Of a stretch of DNA of 26,069 bases, positions 1 through 24,970 are shown piece by piece. The DNA comes from Pascua guehoae (taxonomy: Eukaryota > Basidiomycota > Tremellomycetes > Trichosporonales > Trichosporonaceae). The position numbers were made by a program, and so were the translations under genes. The stretch covers positions 1,003,948-1,030,016 of the forward strand of contig BCJX01000007.1 of NCBI GenBank assembly GCA_001600415.1, read 5' to 3'. The notes beneath the pieces were generated by a model. That model saw nothing but the letters and a program-made list of their open reading frames with translations, was not told the DNA's origin and did no database searches. The first letter of the stretch is position 1. Each line of letters opens with the position of its first letter.

Positions 1-140
1 TGGACATGGACATGGACATGGACACGGACATGGACATGGACATGGACATGGACACGGACATGGACATGGACATGGACATGGACACGGACATGGACGTGGA
101 CTGGACATGGACGTGGACTGGACATGGACGTGGCAGACAA
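1..140. repeat. 30-bp minisatellite plus 17-bp variant units
   Basis: Three identical 30-bp units, each made of five GGACAT/GGACAC-type hexamers, fill bases 1-90. They are followed by about 2.5 copies of a 17-bp variant (TGGACATGGACGTGGAC) up to about 136. Perfect identity between units suggests a young, length-variable array. It lies downstream of the splice donor of the leftmost Myb/SANT-like gene, so it is either in that gene's intron or part of its second exon. Both strands are open in some frames only because 30 bp is ten codons. It is not a TTAGGG-type telomere repeat. Confidence 0.9.
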
Positions 141-677
141 CCACACCAAACCACATCCCAGCACCTGACCCCACCCACATCCCAGACCTAACCCCACCCA
201 CAGACCTAACCCCACTCACGTCCAAGCCTTGTAATTCTGATTCTTGGTGCGCCCCACCACGGCGCCGTCGAACGCGCCCATCCCGCCCGCGCTGCGCGCG
301 TACCCGATGAGGTGGGTGAAGAGCTCGATGTACTGGTCGTTGGTCCATGGCGTCTTGGCGGAGCGCTTGGGGGTGGCGTGGGGTGAGGGGGGTGAGCAGA
401 CGGGGTTGATGTGGGGTTTGGCGTCGCTCTCGGCATCACTCTCGGCGATGGGGGTCTGGGCCTCGGCTCCCGTCTTCTTCGCCTTGGTCTTGGTCGTTGC
501 CCTCTTGGTGGGTCCCGTCTGCGCCTTGGTTTTGGTCGTGGTCTTGGTCTTGCGAGGCTTAGCCGTGGACGAGTCGGCACGGCCGTCCCCTTCCGTGTCG
601 CTTGCGTTGGGCAGAGGCGGGTTCGTGGGACGCGTGTACGGCTTGGTCTCGGCCTTGGGGGGTTTGGCGCGCGGCAT
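1..677 (-). CDS. Myb/SANT-like paralogue 1 (5' part; exon 2 not resolved)
   Basis: Likely nuclear DNA-binding protein; the actual target is unknown. Exon 1 runs 677..220 (152 codons plus 2 nt). It starts MPRAKPPKAETKPYTRP, followed by a Lys/Thr-rich linker (residues about 40-70, NLS-like) and a single Myb/SANT-like repeat from W111 to W152 with helix 3 GRTKNQNYKAW. The second Myb Trp is replaced by Phe (AFDGAV). The donor GTGAGT (219..214) cuts two bases after the last Trp codon, as in the three intact paralogues. Exon 2 is not certain. Possible acceptors lie at CAG in the 17-bp units, which would give a Val/His-rich repeat tail open to the window edge; otherwise exon 2 lies outside. The ATG at 677 is chosen because MPRA is shared by three members and no ATG occurs upstream for about 210 nt. 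Confidence 0.65.
141..219. repeat. Short CCTAACCCCACCCAC-type tandem repeat in the intron
   Basis: Between the minisatellite and the splice donor, a unit of about 18-22 bp (AGACCTAACCCCACCCAC and variants) occurs about three times. On the sense (minus) strand this reads GGGGTTAGGTCTG and falls inside the intron of the leftmost gene. It is G-rich and superficially telomere-like, but the units are not TTAGGG arrays. Confidence 0.65.
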
Positions 678-859
678 TGGGGCGAGGTGGTTGGGGTGGT
701 GGGGGTGGGGTTGGTGGGATGGGGGTGGTGGCTGCGGTGGTGGTTGTGTCCGTGGGGTTCAAAGTAAAGAACCAAGTAGATGGTGAGCGTATGGTTGAAT
801 GAAGAAGCTATGGCGAGGGTGCGGTGAATAGAACGACGATGGGACCCTAAGGAATCTAG

Positions 860-920
860 GACGGCTGTCTGACGCACACTGCTGACCATACGAGGCTGCT
901 GACTTGATGGCAGACACAGG
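860..920 (-). promoter_or_regulatory. Upstream block shared with paralogue 2
   Basis: A block about 185-240 nt upstream of the paralogue 1 start resembles a block about the same distance upstream of paralogue 2 (about 2065-2125). Shared words on the plus strand are GGCTGTCTG, ACCATAC and a GGCT...TGATG segment. In both genes ACCATAC holds the first upstream ATG on the sense strand. It is either a residue of the gene duplication or a retained promoter element; the sequence alone cannot separate these. Confidence 0.5.
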
Positions 921-1161
921 GCGCCCGACTCGGCCCAGCTCGGCGACGCCTCCCCAGCCTGCTGTATCCCCCTGCTCTTACTAACAGGCGTGCCGTGTCC
1001 TAGACACATGCAGCTCGTCCGAGATGCTTACAGCCGAGTCTCAACTACTGCTCAGCAAGTGTAAGCAAAGTGCTGGCTATGTGCAACTGCAATTCATTCC
1101 ATCTCCCCTCCTCATCACAGCGTCGCATTCTACAGGTCGAAAACGGCCTAAGCAAACAGGC

Positions 1162-1877
1162 CTACTCGTCGTCCTCGCCCCCGTCCTCCTCCTCGTCCTC
1201 GAGCTCGTCCTCGTCCTCAAGCTCAATCTTGACGTCGTCGGCCGTCGCACCCTTAACCTTGCCCATGGCACTCTTGGCCTCCCTGCCCTTGCCGGCCTTT
1301 TCGGCGAGCATCTTGCGGATGTACGGCTCGACCGTCACCCTGGAGTCAGCGTGTGCTTGCAACATCCCAACGACCCCTCGTGGCACCCCTGTACAACAGC
1401 CTTCTCAGTTCCGGATGCACCCACCACCCCCAACTAAACTCATGACCGGCAGCTAGCCATTCCGTGCTGTACTCACTTCCAGGTCAGGTACGTCTGGTTA
1501 CGCGTCCGCCCCTCGACGGCGCCGTCAAACACGCCCGTGCCCGCCCGCCGCGCGTGGGCGGCAATGTGCGCAAAGAGCGCGACGTACTCTGCGTTGGTCC
1601 ACGGCTTGCCCGGGCCGCCCTGGCGCTTGCGCGTGGGTTTGGCGGGGTTGAGGTCGGGCTTGGTGTCGTCGTCCGAGGCGGCCGCGGTGCTCTCGGGGTT
1701 GACGGTGTTGGTGTTGGGCTTGGTGTTGGCCTTGGGCTTGGGCTTGGGCTTGCCCTTTGTGGCCTTGGCGGCCTTGTGAGCCTTCATAGGCGACGTGTTG
1801 GCGTCACCGCCGACGCTGGCGGGGCTCGGACGGGTGTACGGCTTGGTCTCGGCCTTGGTGGCTTTGGCGCGCGGCAT
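1162..1877 (-). CDS. Myb/SANT-like paralogue 2, acidic C-terminus
   Basis: Two exons, 1877..1477 and 1339..1162, join to 579 nt (192 aa). The intron (1476..1340) has donor GTGAGT, branch GCTGAC and acceptor CCAG, and interrupts the codon after the last Trp (phase 2). The protein starts MPRAKATKAETKPYTRP and has a Lys/Pro-rich, NLS-like linker (residues about 32-57). One Myb/SANT-like repeat runs from W93 to W133, with helix 3 GRTRNQTYLTW. The second exon begins VTVEPYIRKML and ends in about 20 mostly Asp/Glu residues, which could serve as an acidic activation or histone-binding tail. The family is single-repeat Myb/SANT-like; a transcription or chromatin role is inference. The frame continues upstream of the chosen ATG, but MPRA is the conserved start and the 217 nt before it contain no ATG. 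Confidence 0.75.
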
Positions 1878-2462
1878 GGCGAGGCGGTGAGGCGGTGAGG
1901 CGGTGAGGCAGTGACGAGGTGGCAAAGTGTCGAGGTGGCGAGCGTGGTCGTGGAGCGTGGCCCGGGTCGTGTTTTGCAGAATAACCAAAGCAGCAAGGTG
2001 TCTGAAAGAATGAATGGTGAGGAGTACGAAGGAGAGAAGGAATCACACAGAAGCGTGGGGATATTCGACTGGGCTGTCTGCCCACGCCGCTCACCATACC
2101 GGGGCTAACATGATGACATCTGGGGCGTGTGTGTGACAGAGCCGCTGTGGTGCACCCTCATCCTCCGAGGGCATCAGGCTGGGCCAGGAGTGCCAAAGAG
2201 GTACGTTGAGACGAGCCGTGCTCCTCCTGCCTCGTAGCATGGCACATGGCGACCACTTGGATCTAGGACGACACCTCACGACGACTTGGGGCCGAGCATA
2301 GGTGTAAGTTGATCACATTGGCGTTGCGCGTATCTCATTGTATCTTGTATCTCTGAACAGTACCACAAGGTGCCCTCTGCTTCTCCTGCCCCACCTAGCT
2401 CCCGACTAAGGTGCCCCGCCTGCTTCTCCCTCCCACTCCCGACTACGCTCTTCGACTACGCT
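1878..2462. other. Spacer between paralogues 2 and 3
   Basis: It holds the purine-rich (sense pyrimidine-rich) leader of paralogue 2, including a GGCGGTGAG 9-mer repeated three times at about 1885-1912, the shared upstream block near 2065-2125, and the 3' flank of paralogue 3. A short direct repeat, GACTACGCTCT, lies just downstream of the paralogue 3 stop. No gene is visible. Confidence 0.6.
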
Positions 2463-2993
2463 CTACGCGTCCGACTCGTCCTTGACGGCAGCATCCTTGC
2501 CCGTCTTCTTCGGGCGCGCGCTGCCCTTGGTCTTCTTGGCGATCGTGTCGTAGATGTACGGCTCGATGACCTGCCTGGGCGTCAGTGCCTGCACCCCATA
2601 TCGAGCGGGTGACCGAGATGCCAACTAGACGTGCAGTGCAGTGCAGTGCCCTCTCGACGCCGCAACCACACCCACCGGCTTGCCTCCCACTCACTTCCAG
2701 GTAAAATACGACTGGTTCCTGTTCCGCCCCTCGACGGCATGGTCAAACGTCCTCGACGCCGCGCCGTGGCGCACGACGTGCGCGAACAGCGCCGCGTACT
2801 CGTCGTTTGTCCACGCCTTGTTGCGCTTGGTCGCGTTTGGGTGTGGTGGCGTATCCGTATCGGCGTCCTTGGTGGCGGTGCGCTTGCCTGTCTTGTTGGT
2901 GCGGATGTCGGGCTTGGCGTCGTGCTCGGGAGAGCTCGAGAGGGGGAGCGAGTAGGGCTTGTGCTCCGTCTTGGGCGGGGATGCGCGCGGCAT
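2463..2993 (-). CDS. Myb/SANT-like paralogue 3
   Basis: Two exons, 2993..2695 and 2574..2463, join to 411 nt (136 aa), the shortest intact member. The intron (2694..2575, 120 nt) has donor GTGAGT and acceptor CTGACGCCCAG, again phase 2 directly after the last Trp. The protein starts MPRASPPKTEHKPYS, has a short Lys/Thr/Asp linker, then one Myb/SANT-like repeat from W61 to W99 with helix 3 GRNRNQSYFTW. Thr of the usual GRT is Asn here, and Phe (TFDHAV) replaces the central Trp. Exon 2 begins QVIEPYIYDTIAKK and is Lys-rich without the acidic tail of its neighbour. The spliced reading frame being an exact multiple of three to a stop supports the model. Likely nuclear DNA-binding; partners and targets are unknown. 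Confidence 0.75.
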
Positions 2994-3717
2994 GGTTGGT
3001 GGGGTCGGCGGTAGTATGGCTGGTGGACGGGGTAGCGAGTTGGGGTGAGGGAGAGAGAGTGTGTGAGAGTGGATGAGAACGGAGTGTGAGTTTGAACGGT
3101 CTTGGTGGTGTGAGAATGTCGGCAATACACGTCTGGCACGTCTGGCACGTCTGGCACGCCTGGCTCACGGCTTGCACACGCCTGGCACACAGCTTGTACA
3201 CAGCTTGCACACGTCTCGTCAGCGTGGGTATGCAACTCCAGTGCGCCGTCAAGACCAGGCAGTCAGCCCTTCCAGCCCGCTCAGCGTCAGAGATGAGGCA
3301 CAGACATACAGATATACACAACCACCACCTCGAGAGCCACGCCCGTGCTGACGGCTCTTGGTGTTAGTACCAAAGTACCGGCTCGATGTCCCCGAAGACG
3401 ACACCGTCAGAACCAACTTTCCATTCCATAAACGCCAAACACATGTGCCACCCAGGTGCCACTTTCCGATCGATCGTACATGAACGCTGTAGATTATTTA
3501 TCACACTATATCTCCGAACCGTGCCCTCACAGACCCCGTCGCGACTAGTGCACACTGCCGCCGCCATTCCGCCCGGCGCCCGGCCACGCGCCACCGGGCG
3601 GCCGCCGACTGTGACCCTCGTCCGCCTCGTTGACCAGTATCGCGTCCTCGCCCGTCTCGTCTTCGCCGCCCGTCTTCTTGGCCCGTCTTCGCCGCCCCTC
3701 TTCTTCGCCGGGGACCG
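2994..3717. other. Spacer between paralogue 3 and the paralogue 4 remnant
   Basis: The first ~300 nt contain no ATG on the minus strand and look like the paralogue 3 leader (GA-rich on plus, CT-rich on sense). Beyond the 9-bp repeats, 3220-3600 shows nothing I can assign. From about 3600 to 3717 the sequence is Arg/Lys-codon-rich on the minus strand (AKKRGGEDGP-like) and is in frame with the remnant exon 2 after its stop, so it is probably decayed exon sequence. Confidence 0.5.
3131..3166. repeat. 9-bp tandem repeat in the paralogue 3 upstream region
   Basis: GTCTGGCAC occurs three times exactly and a fourth time as a variant (GCCTGGCTC). Looser TTGCACACG / TTGTACACA units follow to about 3215. 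It sits 140-220 bp upstream of the paralogue 3 start and has no evident coding role. Confidence 0.85.
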
Positions 3718-3769
3718 TTACCCATTACCACCCGACCACCCGTGCCTTATGTACGCCTCCATGGCTGGC
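3718..3769 (-). pseudogene. Remnant second exon of paralogue 4
   Basis: The acceptor CTGACGCCCAG (3780..3770) is identical over 11 nt to that of paralogue 3. The sequence after it reads PAMEAYIRHG when translated in the same phase as the other second exons, aligning with the QVIEPYI and VTVEPYI starts. A stop codon (3720..3718) ends it after about 17 residues, but Lys/Arg-rich codons continue in the same frame beyond. No donor in the partner exon matches its phase. I read this as a decayed exon; a live exon with a different first-exon junction is possible but less likely. Confidence 0.55.
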
Positions 3770-3895
3770 CTGGGCGTCAGATCCCCTCTGCTCTGCCATC
3801 GAGTGGCATCCCCTCTGCTTCCCTACTGTGGCAAATGTTAACCACCAGGCCGCCTGTGTCCCTTCTCAAGTCCCTCTCCCCTCCCCTCCTATTCC

Positions 3896-3971
3896 CACCC
3901 CCCCCCCCCCCCCCACCCCCACCCCCCCCCCCCCCCCCCCCCCCCCCCCACCCCCCCCACCCCCCCCACCC
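3896..3971. repeat. Poly-C tract (poly-G on the minus strand)
   Basis: About 75 bases of C interrupted by a handful of single A residues, including one run of about 25 C. The minus strand has many G runs of three or more and so has clear G-quadruplex potential. It lies inside the would-be intron of paralogue 4. Homopolymers of this length are also prone to sequencing length error. Confidence 0.95.
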
Positions 3972-4091
3972 AAAGCGCCAGCTCCACCCGTCGCCCCCCT
4001 TGGCCGGCGGGGCCCAGCAGATGGTCCACGGCGCGAGCGTACGCCCCCCGTCCCCCGTCCCCCAGCCCCACTCACCCCCACACCGGCGGGC

Positions 4092-4460
4092 TCAAAACTG
4101 CTTGCCGCCCGACATCATCTCGCTGACGTGCGCAAACATGGCGGCGACCTGCTCGCCCGCCGACTGCCTCCGCTTGGGCGGCGGGTGCGTGGGCGGCGAC
4201 GTGCCCGTGGCGTCGCTGTGGCCGTGGCCGTGGGTGTGGTCGTGGTTGCGATCGTGATTGTGGTTGTGGTTGTGTTTGTGTTTGTGGCCGTCGTGGTCGT
4301 GACTGTGGCCCGGACTGTGCGCGGCCATGGCCTTTGCCTTTGCCTTGATTGTCTGTGCGTGGCCTGCCTTGGACGGGTCTTGGGTGTCCTTCTCTGGCCG
4401 GTCGGTCTTTGCAAAGGAGACGTGCATGTGGTCGGTCTTTGCGAACGATACGTGCGGCAT
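4092..4460 (-). CDS. His-rich Myb/SANT-like paralogue 4, truncated
   Basis: A 122-codon frame from ATG 4460 to TGA 4092. It starts MPHVSFAKTD, with HVSFAKTD present twice (residues 3-10 and 13-20). A His/Asp/Asn-rich segment (residues about 48-82) could bind metal. It ends with helix 1 of the Myb-like repeat: EQVAAMFAHVSEMM aligns with EYVALFAHIAAHA of paralogue 2. The frame stops at SGGKQF, where relatives continue into helices 2 and 3, so GRTKNQ and the last Trp are missing. A GTGAGT donor survives 17-22 nt past the stop (4075..4070) but in the wrong phase. This points to a deletion or frameshift in a duplicated gene. It may still make a short His-rich protein; a wholly dead gene is the main alternative. 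Confidence 0.5.
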   Translation of the reverse strand: MPHVSFAKTDHMHVSFAKTDRPEKDTQDPSKAGHAQTIKAKAKAMAAHSPGHSHDHDGHKHKHNHNHNHDRNHDHTHGHGHSDATGTSPPTHPPPKRRQSAGEQVAAMFAHVSEMMSGGKQF

Positions 4461-4978
4461 GGGTGGTGGTGTGGGTGGTGTGGTATGCCGACGTCGAGCT
4501 CGTCGCGTCGGTCGTTGGGGGGGCGACGATGGGGCGCGGGCGGTGGTGGTGGGGGGAGTGGGCGTGGGCGTGAGCGTGAGAACGACAGAGGATGAGAGAG
4601 AGAGAGAGAAAGAGACAATGAGAGTGTTGGTTTCGGACAAGGTATGTCTTGGAGCTGTGAGACATGACATCGAGCCCGCAATCGGCTAACACCCGGTATC
4701 TGGCAGCTAGCAGCCGGCTGAAACCCAACGCACAATGGCACAATGGCACATAGTACAACGGCACACAACACACAACACATACATGTCAGCTATCAAATGC
4801 CCTCGACCTCTGCCGCCTACACGCGTTCCCAGTCTATGCACATGTCGACCCACAAACCCACGAGCCATACGTCGCCCCCACCGCTGGCTGGCACCGCCGT
4901 GCGGCAGCTTTGATCCCACCGACCCCAGAACTGTGCGAACCGGCGTCGCCCGGCCGTGTAAACCTCTTGGTGGGTGCG
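4461..4978. other. Spacer between paralogues 4 and 5 with simple repeats
   Basis: This holds the leader side of paralogue 4, with a (GA)n tract at about 4594-4614 (CT-rich on the sense strand). It also has a run of CACAATGG / ACACAAC repeats at about 4730-4785. The rest is the 3' flank of paralogue 5. No gene is visible. Confidence 0.6.
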
Positions 4979-5670
4979 CTATGCCGCCGTCTCCTCCGTG
5001 GGCTGCTCCGTGGGCTGCGCCGCGGTCTGCGTCTTGGGCTGCACCATGGTCTGCGCCTTGGCCACGACCGCCGCGCGGCAGGCCGGGAGGACGACACGCC
5101 TGGCGTCAGTCATGCGTCGGGCGAGTGCAGGTGCAGGTGCGCGTGCGCGTGGGAAGACGCTTCGCTGCGCTGCACTGTCGCAAAGACCCACCGCCATGCC
5201 TGGTATGCCTGGTTCTTGGTGCGGCCAGGGAGGGCCGTCGCAAAGCTCGACTTTGCCGTGCCGTACACGAGCACGTGGTCGAGGAGCTGGAGGTACTCTT
5301 CCGCCGTCCACTTTGGCCCCATTGACGTGGAATTGGAAGGCGCAGTCGACGTTGACGGGGCCGAAGCCGAAGCCGAAGCCGAAGGCGCAGTCGACACGGC
5401 TGGGGTGGGGGCGCTGCGCCGCCGGTGGTGCCGCGAATAGCTCGAGTAGGACGGCGCCGGCGGCATGAGGTAGCGCGGGCGGTAGTGCGAGTGCGGCTCG
5501 TCCGACTCGTACTGGGCGCCATACTCGTCGCTGTCGTTGCCGCCGCCAACGCGGCCGCTATAGTTCATGGCAATGTCGAGCGCGCCCGGCGACGGCGAGC
5601 GCGAGGGCGGAAACTCCGAGTCGGACGAGGCCGGGTACGTGCGGTTGAACGCCTTTGCGCGGAGCGGCAT
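4979..5670 (-). CDS. Myb/SANT-like paralogue 5, Ser/Ala-rich
   Basis: Two exons, 5670..5192 and 5099..4979, join to 600 nt (199 aa). The intron (5191..5100, 92 nt) has donor GTGGGT and acceptor CTGACGCCAG and keeps the family position, two bases past the last Trp codon. The N-terminus is MPLRAKAFNRTYP, a diverged form of MPRAK...KPYTRP. It is followed by Ser/Asp and Tyr/His-rich stretches and a low-complexity Ser/Ala segment (residues about 94-116). The Myb/SANT-like repeat runs W121 to W159, with helix 3 GRTKNQAYQAW, the closest of all to canonical Myb. Exon 2 is Ala/Gln/Thr-rich (VVLPACRAAVVAKAQ) and has lost EPYI. Reading through the intron instead gives a His-rich tail (HAHAHLHLH) ending at 5110. 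The open frame extends far upstream, but this ATG matches its relatives and no other ATG lies within about 205 nt. Confidence 0.7.
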
Positions 5671-13707: not shown

Positions 13708-14121
13708 TTATGTCTTTTCTATACGTGAAGCGGTTTGCGAAAACTCGCCGCCGGAGAGGGTCGCTGCAGCAGCAGAGAATCGCCGCCGGAGAGGGATCGC
13801 ACTTGGGGGTGTGTTGGGGTTGGGTAAGCCTACTTCCTGTCGAGGCTGCTGCTGCAGGTACAGAAAATCTTGCCAGTTGATTCCCCTCTTGGTGTACGAG
13901 CGCTTGCCGGTGGGGTTGACATCGGCGTAAAACGTGACAGCGCTGGCCTTGTCAGTGCCGAGAACAAGGGCCGGGTCGCCCGAGATGTCCTGGATGGCGT
14001 AGTTGTCGTCCAGTTCAACGGTCCCGACAATGCGGTCTCCATCCCAGACGTGGGAGGTTGCGGCATTGGCGACACCGGCAGCCCAGAGGAGAGCGAGCGC
14101 GCAGGGGGCGGTGAACTTCAT
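13708..14121 (-). CDS. Predicted secreted small protein
   Basis: A 137-codon frame starting MKFTAPCALALLWAAGVANA, a clear signal peptide with likely cleavage after ANA (residue 20). The mature part begins ATSHVWDGDRIVGTVELDD and contains the dibasic sites GKR and TKR (residues about 73-80), possible Kex2 targets, then GINWQDF. The C-terminal ~45 residues (Gln/Pro/Arg/Ala-rich) include an imperfect duplication and may not be authentic coding; an unrecognised intron or earlier end is possible. A 5'-UTR intron with donor GTACGT, branch GCTAAT and end CAAG lies just upstream (about 14172..14132). It contains the only upstream ATG, and the spliced leader is otherwise ATG-free for about 150 nt. No family is recognised. 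Confidence 0.6.
   Translation of the reverse strand: MKFTAPCALALLWAAGVANAATSHVWDGDRIVGTVELDDNYAIQDISGDPALVLGTDKASAVTFYADVNPTGKRSYTKRGINWQDFLYLQQQPRQEVGLPNPNTPPSAIPLRRRFSAAAATLSGGEFSQTASRIEKT
13747..13799. repeat. Direct repeat CGCCGCCGGAGAGGG
   Basis: CGCCGCCGGAGAGGG followed by (A)TCGC occurs twice, about 34 bp apart, within the C-terminal coding part of the secreted-protein frame. The copies give LSGGE- and LRRR-type residues in different frames, so selection at the protein level is not evident. Confidence 0.75.
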
Positions 14122-14165
14122 GGTGATGAGGGTCTTGAATTCATTAGCGTCTGCAAAGGACCTGC

Positions 14166-15580
14166 ACGTACTTGTTGAGTTGTTGTTTGAGAGTAGAGTT
14201 GAGGGCTGAAAGAGAGGCGTGAGATCAAGTTGTGTTTGTTGGAGGGGTATGTCTCCCGTTGGACCCCTTTTTAACCTTTTCAGAAAGTCGTTCAGAGGGA
14301 GGCGGACTGTAAGATGAACTTGAGCGCAGACATCCCGGGTAAAATTGACCGGCCAGCGAGGGGGCAAGTGTGGAGCAATCACCCCGTCCATTTGCAAAAC
14401 CAGCGAGGTGAGAAATGACAACTCGGCCCATTTGAAAAGCAACGAGACTGGCTCGACGAGCAAGACAGCGACGGCGACGAGCAGAGTAAGCGACGGTTCC
14501 GTCCATTTGCAAAGCCATTGTCTCGTGAGACGGTAAAGACAAGTGTCATGCGGTCATCGTGAACGAACGGCGAGGATGCCGCGGTGTGAGAAACGAGTCT
14601 CGGACCCATTTGCAAAGCACCCAGCTCGTGGAAGGGGATAGAAAACACGCACAGACTAACAGTCAGCTGACGGCGATGAGTGAAGGAAGGAACGACCATC
14701 TTGCCCATGTGTGACACCATCGCCGAAGTCGAGCGGGGGGGGGGAGGAGGGAGGGAAAGGGCTTGTGTGGTGGGGCCGGTTTCAATGTGCGGGAGTGATC
14801 TGCGGGAGTGACCTGCGGGAGTGAGGAGAAGCCATCATCCAGTGCATTTGCAAAGGAATCAGCTCGAAAGAGGGGACGGAAAACACGCGTGAGTAAGAAC
14901 CTGGGGACGGCGGTGAGTCGAGTAGAGAAAGGGAGCGAGATTCAGCTGACGGCGAGGAGTGGAGTAAGGAACGACCATCTTGTTCATGTGCGACACCATC
15001 GCCGAAATGGGCGGCGGCGGCGGGGGTGTTTCAATGTGCGGCAGTGAGGAGTAGCCACAATCCAGGGCATTTGCAACAGAATCAGCTTGAGAGACGGGGC
15101 GGAAAACACGCGTAAGTAAGAATTCGGGGATGGCAGTGAGTAGAGTAGAGAAAGGGGGCGAGATTCAGCTGGCGGCGAGGAGTGAAGCAAGGAACGACTA
15201 TGTTGCCCCATGTGCGACACCATCACAGAAGTCGAGTGGATGGGCCGCGAGCATTCGGGGGACTCAATGTGCGGGAGTGATCTGCGGGAGTGAGTAGCCA
15301 CCGTCCAGTGCTTTTGCAAAACAATCAGCTGGTGAGAGGGGACGGAAAAGACGCAAGTAAGAATCTGTGCAAGGAGATAAGTGGAGTACGGAAAGGTCTA
15401 AGCGCCTCGTCCATGTGTGACGCGACCACCGACGTTAGAGGAACGTGACAGTTGTGACGAGTGAGGAGGGGCCAGGAACGGCCATCCTGTCCATTTGCAA
15501 AGCAGCCATCTACGTCTAGACCCTGGCAGGTTGTTTTGTCGCCTCGTGCTTATCGTAGCTCTTTACCTCTCCACAGCGCG
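14166..15580. other. Repeat-dominated spacer
   Basis: Besides the TTTGCAAA units, the first 160 nt are the leader and promoter of the secreted protein on the minus strand, with GGTTAAAAAGG as a possible TATA-like element near 14270. No gene is supported inside the repeats. Confidence 0.5.
14391..15501. repeat. Degenerate repeat cluster carrying TTTGCAAA
   Basis: The 8-bp palindrome TTTGCAAA occurs at 14391, 14506, 14609, 14847, 15313 and 15494. One-base variants lie at 14431 (TTTGAAAA) and 15070 (TTTGCAAC). It is usually preceded by CCA or GCA. From about 14600 it is embedded in diverged units that also share GAAAACACGC, CAGCTGACGGCGA, GGAACGACCATCTTG, TGTGCGACACCATCGCC and TGCGGGAGTGA. GGAACGAC anchors are at 14689, 14968 and 15191, so the unit is about 220-280 bp. 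Short stretches read FANG or LQMDG on the minus strand, but no frame spans the units. Confidence 0.8.
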
Positions 15581-21254: not shown

Positions 21255-24200
21255 ATGGCTACTGCCGTCCAACACCAGCCGTCTGCATCTCGACGAAACT
21301 CTGCGGCTGGACCCAGCGCGGACCGGAGTCGGAAACGTGCATCGGCCACTTCGACGTCGAGTGGTAGGAGCGCGGATGCTCAGGTCATCGGCCAGTGGCG
21401 TATTGGCCGGACGATCGGCAAAGGTTCCTCAGGTGCGCACAGATGCCTCTTTTCCCCATCAGTTGGGTCATGCTCACACTCTTCTCCGCTGTTCCGACAC
21501 GTCTCTTGCACCTGTTTGCATCCTGTTTGCACACTGTTTGCACGCCTCGGCACCCTTCTACGCCCACTTTCCTGAACTGAACGTGACAACCATGCGGCTG
21601 TATTCCACCAAACAGGACGCGTCAAGATTGCCAAACACTCGCAGACTGGCCAGTATGCCGCCGTCAAGATTGTGCCCAAGACCATGATCATGTCGTCGCG
21701 CATGTCCATGACCGACGCCGCGGGACGCAGCGAAAAGATGCTGCTCGGCATTGAGCGCGAGATTGTCATCATGAAGCTCATTGATCACCCCAATGTCTTA
21801 TCACTGTTCGACGTGTGGGAGACTAGCCAGGAGCTGTAAGTGTCCGAGGGAGGCAATGGGTGTCCCATCGCGCCCTGAGCCCAGCCATTTCCCCACGCCG
21901 AAGAAGACGGGGTGGGCATGAGCGTGTGGGGCGCGTGGGGCGTGTAAATGGCCATGCACGCGCAGTGGTGGCCCGTGGGAGGCATGGAGGCATGTGCATG
22001 ACACTAACCCCCCCCCAGCTACCTGATCATGGAATACGTCCCCGGAGGAGAACTGTTCGACTACCTTGTCCGACGCGGTCGTCTCCCCGTCAGCGAAGCA
22101 CTGCACTACTTTCAGCAAATCATCTTTGCCGTCGACTACTGCCACCGTTTCAACATCTGCCACCGTGATCTCAAGCCCGAGAACTTGCTCTTGGATAAGG
22201 ACAAGAACATCAAGGTGGCCGACTTTGGAATGGCCGCGTGGCAGGCCGACGAGCGCATGCTCGAGACCAGCTGTGGCAGCCCACACTATGCGTCGCCCGA
22301 GATTGTGGCCGGCAAGATGTACGATGGCTCGGCTAGTGATATCTGGTCGTGCGGCATCATCCTCTTCGCACTGCTCACGGGCCGTCTCCCATTTGACGAT
22401 GACAACATTCGCACCCTCCTCCAAAAGGTCAAGATTGGACACTTTGAGATGCCCGACGACATTGACCCGTCGGCTCGCGATCTCCTCCGGCGCATGCTTG
22501 AAAAGGACCCCGCTCACCGCATCACCATGGACAAGATTAAGATTCACCCATTCTTCACTTCTCGTCCCGTCCGCCTCACCAACGGCCGCGCATTGCCAGT
22601 CCCTCCTACACTCGAAGCCATGGCTCGCCCCGTCAACTTAAGCGAGGTCGACCCCGACATCATGGCCAACCTCAAGACTCTCTGGAGCGGCGCGTCTCAC
22701 AATGACATTGTACGCGAACTCAAGAGCGCTGAGCCGACATGGGAAAAGGCAATCTTCCATCTCCTTGTAAAGTATCGCTCGAGGCACTTTGAAAACTACA
22801 ACATGGACGGCGAGAGCGACGACGAAGACTCGGATGACGGCGACCGCGAACGCGCTCGTCCCCACTCGCGCCCGGGCCGCAATCCCCACAACTGCTTGCC
22901 ATCGCCCCCCAAGCAGCGTCGTATTACTCCTCCGATTACGCAGCAGATCCGCCGCAAGCCGGCTCCGCTGTCGGAGAACGACACAATCCAGCACCACGGC
23001 ACACCCCCACCCCGGCCTCAGGCACCCACACCCAAGAAGGCCGCTACTGCTGCCGCTGCGCTCAGTGTTGCAACGGGATCGCCTGTTACCCGCGTACCGT
23101 CCAAGCTCGGCCCCCGTGGTGGACATCCCGCTGGTCCTCGTTCACCAGTGTCCCGTCCCACATCGGGACCCCCTGCCATGCCCAACAACCTGCCGTTCGC
23201 GCCGGCCATTACGCTCCAGGAGGCAACACCAGTCAAGGAGATTGCTGCACCTCAGGCCAAGGTGGTTCCCGCGGGGGTTTCTCCCTTGCGCTCCCCAGGG
23301 CCTATTTCTCCTCTGGCCTCGCCAATCTTGGCGCACTCCGAGTCGCCCCAGGTTGCTCCGTTGTCACCACCCATGGTCGGCGACGAAAAGCTGCAAAACT
23401 TCCTCTGCCAGATTGCCAACCAGCTCAACTCGATGAACATTCGTTCGTCGACTGCATCCAGTGGCTCGGGCCACTCGACGAGCCTCCAGAGCGAGTTCAA
23501 CGCCTACATGTCCTACATGTCGCAGCAGCCCCCGACGCCAGAGACGACTCCCAACGCGGTTCAGGTGGCGCTCTCGTCCAATGACGAGGACGACCAGTTT
23601 GCCGACGCCACAGACGACAACACTGAAGCCATGTCGATCTGCTCGTATGACCACCAGTCGCGCTACGCTCCGTCGCCAGTGCCTCCTTCTCCCATCAGCC
23701 CCTCGATGCCAAGCCCCAACCCCATCGGTCTTGGTTTCGGGCCTACGCCTCGTACTCACCACACGCGTAGCGGCCCGCCTCCCGTCTCTGGTCGCTGGAG
23801 CCACGGTTCCGGCACCTACCGCCCGCGCTCGTTCTCGAGCCGTGGAGAGTCACCTGTCCCTGGTCTTTCGCCCGCTCTCTCTCCTGGCCTGTACTCGCCC
23901 AACCCCAGCTTTACATCGTACACCGAGAGCCCTCCCCTCGCTACCACTCCCCATCCTCTTCCTACGCCTCCAAGCGCCACGATCCCGCTCCCCGCATTCC
24001 CCCCGACCCACCTCCAGGCTGGCCGGACGGCACCAGCTCCACCGGCCAAGATGGCCTCGCGGCGCGCCCCGGCCCCGCCCGGGCCTCGTTCCGGAGCCGA
24101 CCGCGAGCGTGTCGTGTCGCAGCTTGGTCGCGAGAACTCTTACGTCTTTGTCGACACCCCAGACATGATTCTCGACCAAAAGTCGTCGAGCTCGTGGGGA

Positions 24201-24970
24201 AGCAAGGCCTCGGCCTTTGGGTCGCACCGCGGCACAGACGGCTTTGGCATGCTGCGCAAGCGCAAGAAGAGCCAATGTGAGTGATACAACCTTTTGCGCT
24301 CTAGCATGAAAGCTAACCAAAACCAGTTGCGTCCATCGACCCCTCGGCTGTTTCGCCCGTCTCGCCGGCGGTCAACTCGCCCAAGCGCTCGTGGTTCAAC
24401 AACTTATTCTCGTTCAAGCCCGAGTCCAAGGACCTGCTCATCAAGAGCACGAGCATCAGCGAGGCGCGCGACAAGGTCCGTCGCGTGCTCACTGCACAGG
24501 GCGTGCGTGTCACGACTGCAGAGTACGACGGCCTCCGCGGCTTCCGCTGCAAGATTGCCGACACTCGCGACATCCAGGGCAACGTTGTCAAGGGCGTGCG
24601 CTTCCGCGTCGAGTTTTCGCGCACCGTCACCGCTGGCACGACGTTTGCGACCAACGCGACTCTTACCCTGGAGCGCGGCGCACTCTCGGCCTTCAACGCC
24701 GCATACAACCGCTTACAGACGTCGCTTGACAATGAGGCGTTGGCAGCGCTTGCTGCGGCTGGCCCCGAAGACCAATCCAACGCGCCCCGGCAGACGTTTT
24801 CGCTGGGCCGTGCGACTGCCACGAGCTCGCCCCGTCGCCCCAGCCTTTGGGACAGCGGACTCGCGCCCGCGCCTCCTCGCCGCGGCACCATCAGTGCCCC
24901 GGTCACGCCCATCGACATTGGCCGTCCGATGAACTTTAGCCACCAAACCGGTGCCCCGATCCGGTTCTGA
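21255..24970 (+). CDS. SAD/BRSK-Gin4-Nim1 family serine/threonine kinase
   Basis: Exons 21255..21432, 21616..21835, 22019..24276 and 24327..24970 join to 3300 nt (1099 aa). The kinase domain spans about 48-312: glycine loop GKGSSGRV (55-62), catalytic Lys in AAVKIV (K77), HRDLKPEN (D183), DFG (D201) and activation loop LETSCGSPHYASPE with T216 as the likely activating phosphosite. All catalytic residues are present. A UBA-like domain (about 344-393) follows. Then comes ~500 residues of Pro/Ser-rich disordered linker with many SP/TP sites. A C-terminal KA1-like domain starts RSWFNNLF (about 906-1018), a sequence start typical of animal SAD/BRSK kinases. Fungal relatives act at the bud neck or cell cortex in septin organisation and Wee1 control; KA1 usually binds acidic membrane lipid. 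Introns 1 and 2 are both 183 nt, far longer than intron 3 (50 nt). The start is the first ATG after a 969-nt ATG-free leader. Confidence 0.93.

Follow-up and report, generated by a model that had tools for sequence, protein, structure and literature searches.

What kind of genes make up the tandem array at one end of a 26,069-bp stretch of Pascua guehoae DNA, and do they form a novel family that is expanding in place? The stretch (C7:1003948-1030016, contig BCJX01000007.1; called the window here) comes from a genome of 33.6 Mb in 28 contigs. The original prediction, made from the letters alone, saw five Myb/SANT-like paralogues on one strand within positions 1-5670, sharing an intron position, and called them a lineage-specific family. 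The main points of that observation hold; the family has more members than were first noticed, and it is old and dispersed. The minus strand of this segment carries three complete genes with one Myb repeat each (G2, G3 and G5), a fourth (G1) broken off by a run of N, and a decayed copy, G4.

Reality and identity of the Myb domains

With a hidden Markov model (HMM) built only from the six relatives that lie outside the window, the four domains of the window reach 57.3, 53.6, 52.2 and 50.8 bits, while 20 codon-shuffled control windows peak at 11.7 bits; the array is real, beyond chance. The count of five paralogues holds for four domain-bearing genes (50.8-57.3 bits) but not for G4, which lacks the recognition helix and went unreported by the family HMM. 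Single-protein searches gave ten domain loci in the genome, a number to be read as at least 10: the window cluster (G1, G2, G3 and G5; minus strand), cluster A (A1, A2 and A3; C7:975.2-977.7 kb, plus strand), cluster C (C1 and C2; C7:1126.96-1127.73 kb, plus strand) and a single gene, D, at C14:59.4 kb. A six-frame HMM scan of the fetched stretches and the window returned the same ten loci in 11 rows, G1 appearing double because the window overlaps the stretch L013, and it matched the second exons of G2, C1, G3, D and C2 as separate frames (E < 0.01). The arrays are interior to a 1.44-Mb contig, away from its ends.

Judged by its sequence, the domain is a Myb repeat, ordinary rather than a new protein kind. 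A profile of the ten members matches v-Myb (E 2.7e-11) and c-Myb (E 3e-11) in PDB, and G5 alone reaches E 7.9e-4. Against Pfam PF00249, whose gathering score of 24.4 is a curation threshold and no biological trait, three members score 21.8, 19.4 and 17.4 bits in the genome search and G5 scores 15.1 and 19.2 bits, with the best member at E 5.3e-5 in a separate scan; the trihelix-like Myb_DNA-bind_4 (PF13837) matches the genome three times, never at a family locus. Four residues (W, R, Q, W) are kept in all ten members, the two Trp being the first and last of the repeat. The middle position is Phe in 8/10, including the four window domains for which this replacement had been described, but A2 and A3 keep Trp. 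Predicted fold points the same way less firmly: the AlphaFold model, of modest confidence, has three helices with c-Myb R1 as best fold match, and further matches include several SANT structures and the Myb domains of TRF1 and TRF2. The 'EPYI' start of exon 2, once a candidate for a novel element, was rejected as such, since it corresponds in alignment to the Pro-containing end of repeats R1 and R2 of v-/c-Myb; the domain being a Myb repeat, the idea that no named family has this architecture is not supported.

With the Myb repeat proteins (PF00249; c-Myb, v-Myb and B-Myb) the array members share the first Trp, helix 1, the middle aromatic residue, the GRTxxQxxxxW helix 3 and the Pro-containing R1/R2 tail, as well as the nearest predicted fold, that of c-Myb R1. 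Unlike the R2R3 and 3R Myb proteins, with their two or three adjacent repeats, they have one domain per gene model; they also differ in the middle Phe, in two or three additional residues past helix 1 in four members, and in scoring below the Pfam cut-off where scores are given. Single-repeat MYB-related (1R-MYB) proteins and telobox proteins such as TRF1/TRF2 are recognised classes. Both have a single Myb repeat per protein, as here, but the remainder of the array proteins is without notable Pfam match, and the arrays are not at contig ends. Fungi also have Myb-type regulators, among them flbD, BZcon1 and MylA (extracts from sources including PMC3998117); MylA was, according to the abstract, selected among proteins with two Myb repeats, and the passages on flbD and BZcon1 describe no multi-copy single-repeat array.

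A shared intron and old duplications

Eight gene models are complete (G2, G3, G5, A1, A3, D, C1 and C2; 64-244 aa, introns of 39-199 nt), and in all eight the intron is in phase 2 at the last Trp. Its placement two bases past the last Trp codon, originally described for the window genes, applies to 7/8 of these models, and the donor of G1 sits where G2, G3 and G5 have theirs; the intron of A3 and the donor assigned to A2 fall one codon earlier, within the Trp codon, with the phase the same. For A2 the donor is present and a second exon could not be assigned. The splice models are predictions, the acceptors having been picked to keep the frame and to resemble those of other members. CTGAC or CTGAT, which we take to be the usual form of fungal branch sites, begins 10-14 nt upstream of the intron end in 8/8 introns. 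The likeness of the acceptors is therefore that of an ordinary branch site plus AG, and the common acceptor was discarded as a family signature. A paralogous Myb-domain family with a conserved intron, in turn, is upheld by homology among the ten copies. The MPRA start attributed to the array opens three of its five genes (G1, G2 and G3); G4 begins MPHV and G5 MPLR.

Domain identity is 25-64% over all ten members and 34-56% inside the window. The tree separates {G1, G2, G3, D, A1} from {G5, A2, A3, C1, C2} with support of 83/92, below the tool's strong mark. Genome neighbours are also paired on it in two cases, A2 with A3 (93/92) and C1 with C2 (96/93), and for these expansion in place is apt. 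The window array, in contrast, mixes the two lineages: placing its members takes four label changes on the tree, and they form a clade of their own in 0% of 200 bootstrap trees. Both lineages recur in the cluster ~30 kb away, and one of them is also on another contig. One recent local burst was accordingly rejected as the origin of an array that combines two old lineages. Compared as DNA, the window copies resemble one another around their starts and within the domain: G1 and G2 match at 85.7% over 77 bp, and the domains at 72-74% over 139 bp. The duplications therefore seem to be old, A2/A3 and C1/C2 being local pairs. The dN/dS comparison that the original prediction had proposed gives values close to 1 or higher for some pairs and undefined ones in 3/45, all unreliable at a third-position GC of 0.77-0.95. 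A KPYxxP motif is found near the N-terminus in 6/10 members (G1, G2, G3, A1, A2 and C1), across both lineages.

Two protein searches that came back empty agree with restriction of the family to its lineage but do not establish it. The G2 domain as query drew 21 candidates, none at E <= 10; the alignment of ten proteins (eight complete, two of exon 1 only) gave 7,994 scored candidates without a hit at E <= 1, possibly because Lys/Pro-rich words swamped the search. Such searches require exact shared words and are weak for so divergent a family. A control query with the kinase of the window had Vanrija albida (55%) and V. pseudolonga (54%) as its best named hits, with Cutaneotrichosporon at 50-51% and other proteins at up to 60% (among the best 120 of 5,700), and puts the fungus in Trichosporonales. 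The database thus covers Trichosporonales, yet a conserved kinase is itself far from its relatives there, so the empty family searches may be taken as weak evidence for lineage restriction. Full-text literature searches brought up no paper that we recognised as treating such a multi-copy single-repeat Myb family; 'myb' occurs 0 times in the main text of PMC7026411 and 0 times in PMC12820176.

Helix 3 and the probable function

We consider it probable that the array consists of Myb regulators with a single repeat, whose numbers grew through old duplications and which act via DNA. The products would be small nuclear proteins with a single Myb repeat, a mostly basic or Pro-rich N-terminal linker and a variable tail; they may bind DNA via helix 3, as dimers or aided by the basic linker, in a role as regulators of transcription or chromatin. 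Tandem and short-range duplications would have produced the copies, at a time so remote that little beyond the domain and start region still matches in DNA, and G4 would be one copy that decayed.

Helix 3 (columns 37-48 of alignment A3) has R38, Q42 and W47 invariant and Asn at column 41 in 7/10. SANT-like domains share the fold but, within chromatin complexes, attach to histone tails or to partner proteins instead of DNA, and such a role would suit the single repeat, the several SANT structures among the fold matches, a local RBBP4 resemblance and the acidic tail of G2 (charge -13). The helix 3 of SANT domains is, however, acidic or hydrophobic and unsuited to DNA, whereas here it is basic in 10/10 members, with net charges of +1 to +3, which favours DNA binding over histone binding; with DNA-binding Myb repeats as the best sequence matches as well, we regard a SANT-like role as unlikely. 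The array could instead be largely a graveyard of functionless, diverging duplicates with G4 as its visible endpoint, a view that draws on the lost recognition helix of G4, the unassignable second exon of A2, the high divergence of the members and the elevated dN/dS of some pairs. But reading frames remain open and splice sites present in eight members, and retention of the same W, R, Q and W by all ten at 25-64% domain identity is unexpected under neutral decay, making this account quite improbable. Dispersed small clusters with a Myb-like domain also recall the DNA-binding domains of Harbinger-type transposons, domesticated or travelling. That origin is scarcely credible and was rejected on the two transposable-element families covered: DDE_Tnp_4 (PF13359) matched only contig C12 (2 matches), and of 55 reverse-transcriptase matches just one is on C7, at 338 kb, more than 600 kb from the arrays. 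Ordinary gene duplication is favoured because the intron is common to the members.

If the proteins are DNA-binding Myb regulators, helix 3 may also bear on their specificity. Its most variable position is column 45, with six residues among the ten paralogues; in a profile alignment this column matches Glu132 of c-Myb and so the Glu132/Asn183 column. Glu132, Asn179 and Asn183 are listed in a description of the c-Myb (1MSE) DNA interface, with Glu132 and Asn183 at equivalent positions (PMC4613820). The variability would fit paralogues with differing DNA preferences. A tentative and rather doubtful extension would make these Trichosporonales-specific single-Myb regulators in which duplication was coupled to change at the base-contact column, and the scaffold residues were retained along with the Asn179-equivalent (Asn in 7/10), yielding related factors with different DNA words. 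A caution on the specificity part is that several columns outside helix 3 (21, 28 and 30) vary even more than column 45.

With this array a little-studied fungal order gains a multi-copy Myb family that is small, divergent and mostly under the Pfam cut-off, and whose conserved intron is a mark for recognising copies. Should the variation in helix 3 reflect specificity, the family would offer a compact natural set on duplicated factors gaining new DNA targets; as found, it is a gene family of an ordinary sort.

Gene models of the window and neighbouring features

All gene models of the array are on the minus strand, in window coordinates. Exon 1 of G1 (220..677) has 152 complete codons, encodes the Myb repeat and ends at the donor GTGAGT after TGG AC; its second exon is not visible because a run of N (3,259 bases, C7:1000689-1003947) ends directly before position 1 of the window. 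A TGGACA-type tandem repeat at 1-135 continues into this 3.26-kb run. G2 (192 aa) has its Myb repeat in exon 1 (1477..1877) and an exon 2 (1162..1339) that starts VTVEPYIRK and encodes the acidic tail. In G3 (136 aa) exon 1 (2695..2993) likewise encodes the Myb repeat and exon 2 (2463..2574) begins QVIEPYIY, while G5 (199 aa) joins a Ser/Ala-rich linker and Myb repeat (exon 1, 5192..5670) to an exon 2 (4979..5099) that opens RVVLPACRAAV.

What is left of G4 lies in pieces in different frames, partly read by eye: its start and His-rich linker, helix 1, a site resembling a donor, and a remnant of exon 2. The decayed exon 1 (4092..4460) is a 122-aa open reading frame with the linker and helix 1, in which the recognition helix is gone and a stop follows; the remnant (3718..3769, coordinates by eye), reading PAMEAYIRHGW, is in the same register as the intact second exons. 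A long C-rich tract, of a kind liable to sequencing error, occupies 3898-3970 within the G4 intron remnant.

Other features lie in the window and beside cluster A. At window 13711-14553 (minus strand) an open frame contains a start that by eye resembles a signal peptide (MKFTAPCALALLWAAGVANA), with no Pfam match at 0.01. Beside A3, at L010 8279-8938 (minus strand), the end of another open frame resembles, again by eye, the start of an ING-type PHD finger, with no Pfam match at 0.01, and a nucleosome assembly protein (NAP) fragment (L010 3-365, minus strand; E 1.7e-32) lies ~4.5 kb before A1. The kinase of the window, at 22008-24967, is of the Gin4/Hsl1 type, with Pkinase (E 3.9e-53) and Fungal_KA1 (E 3.7e-6) matches in two open frames.
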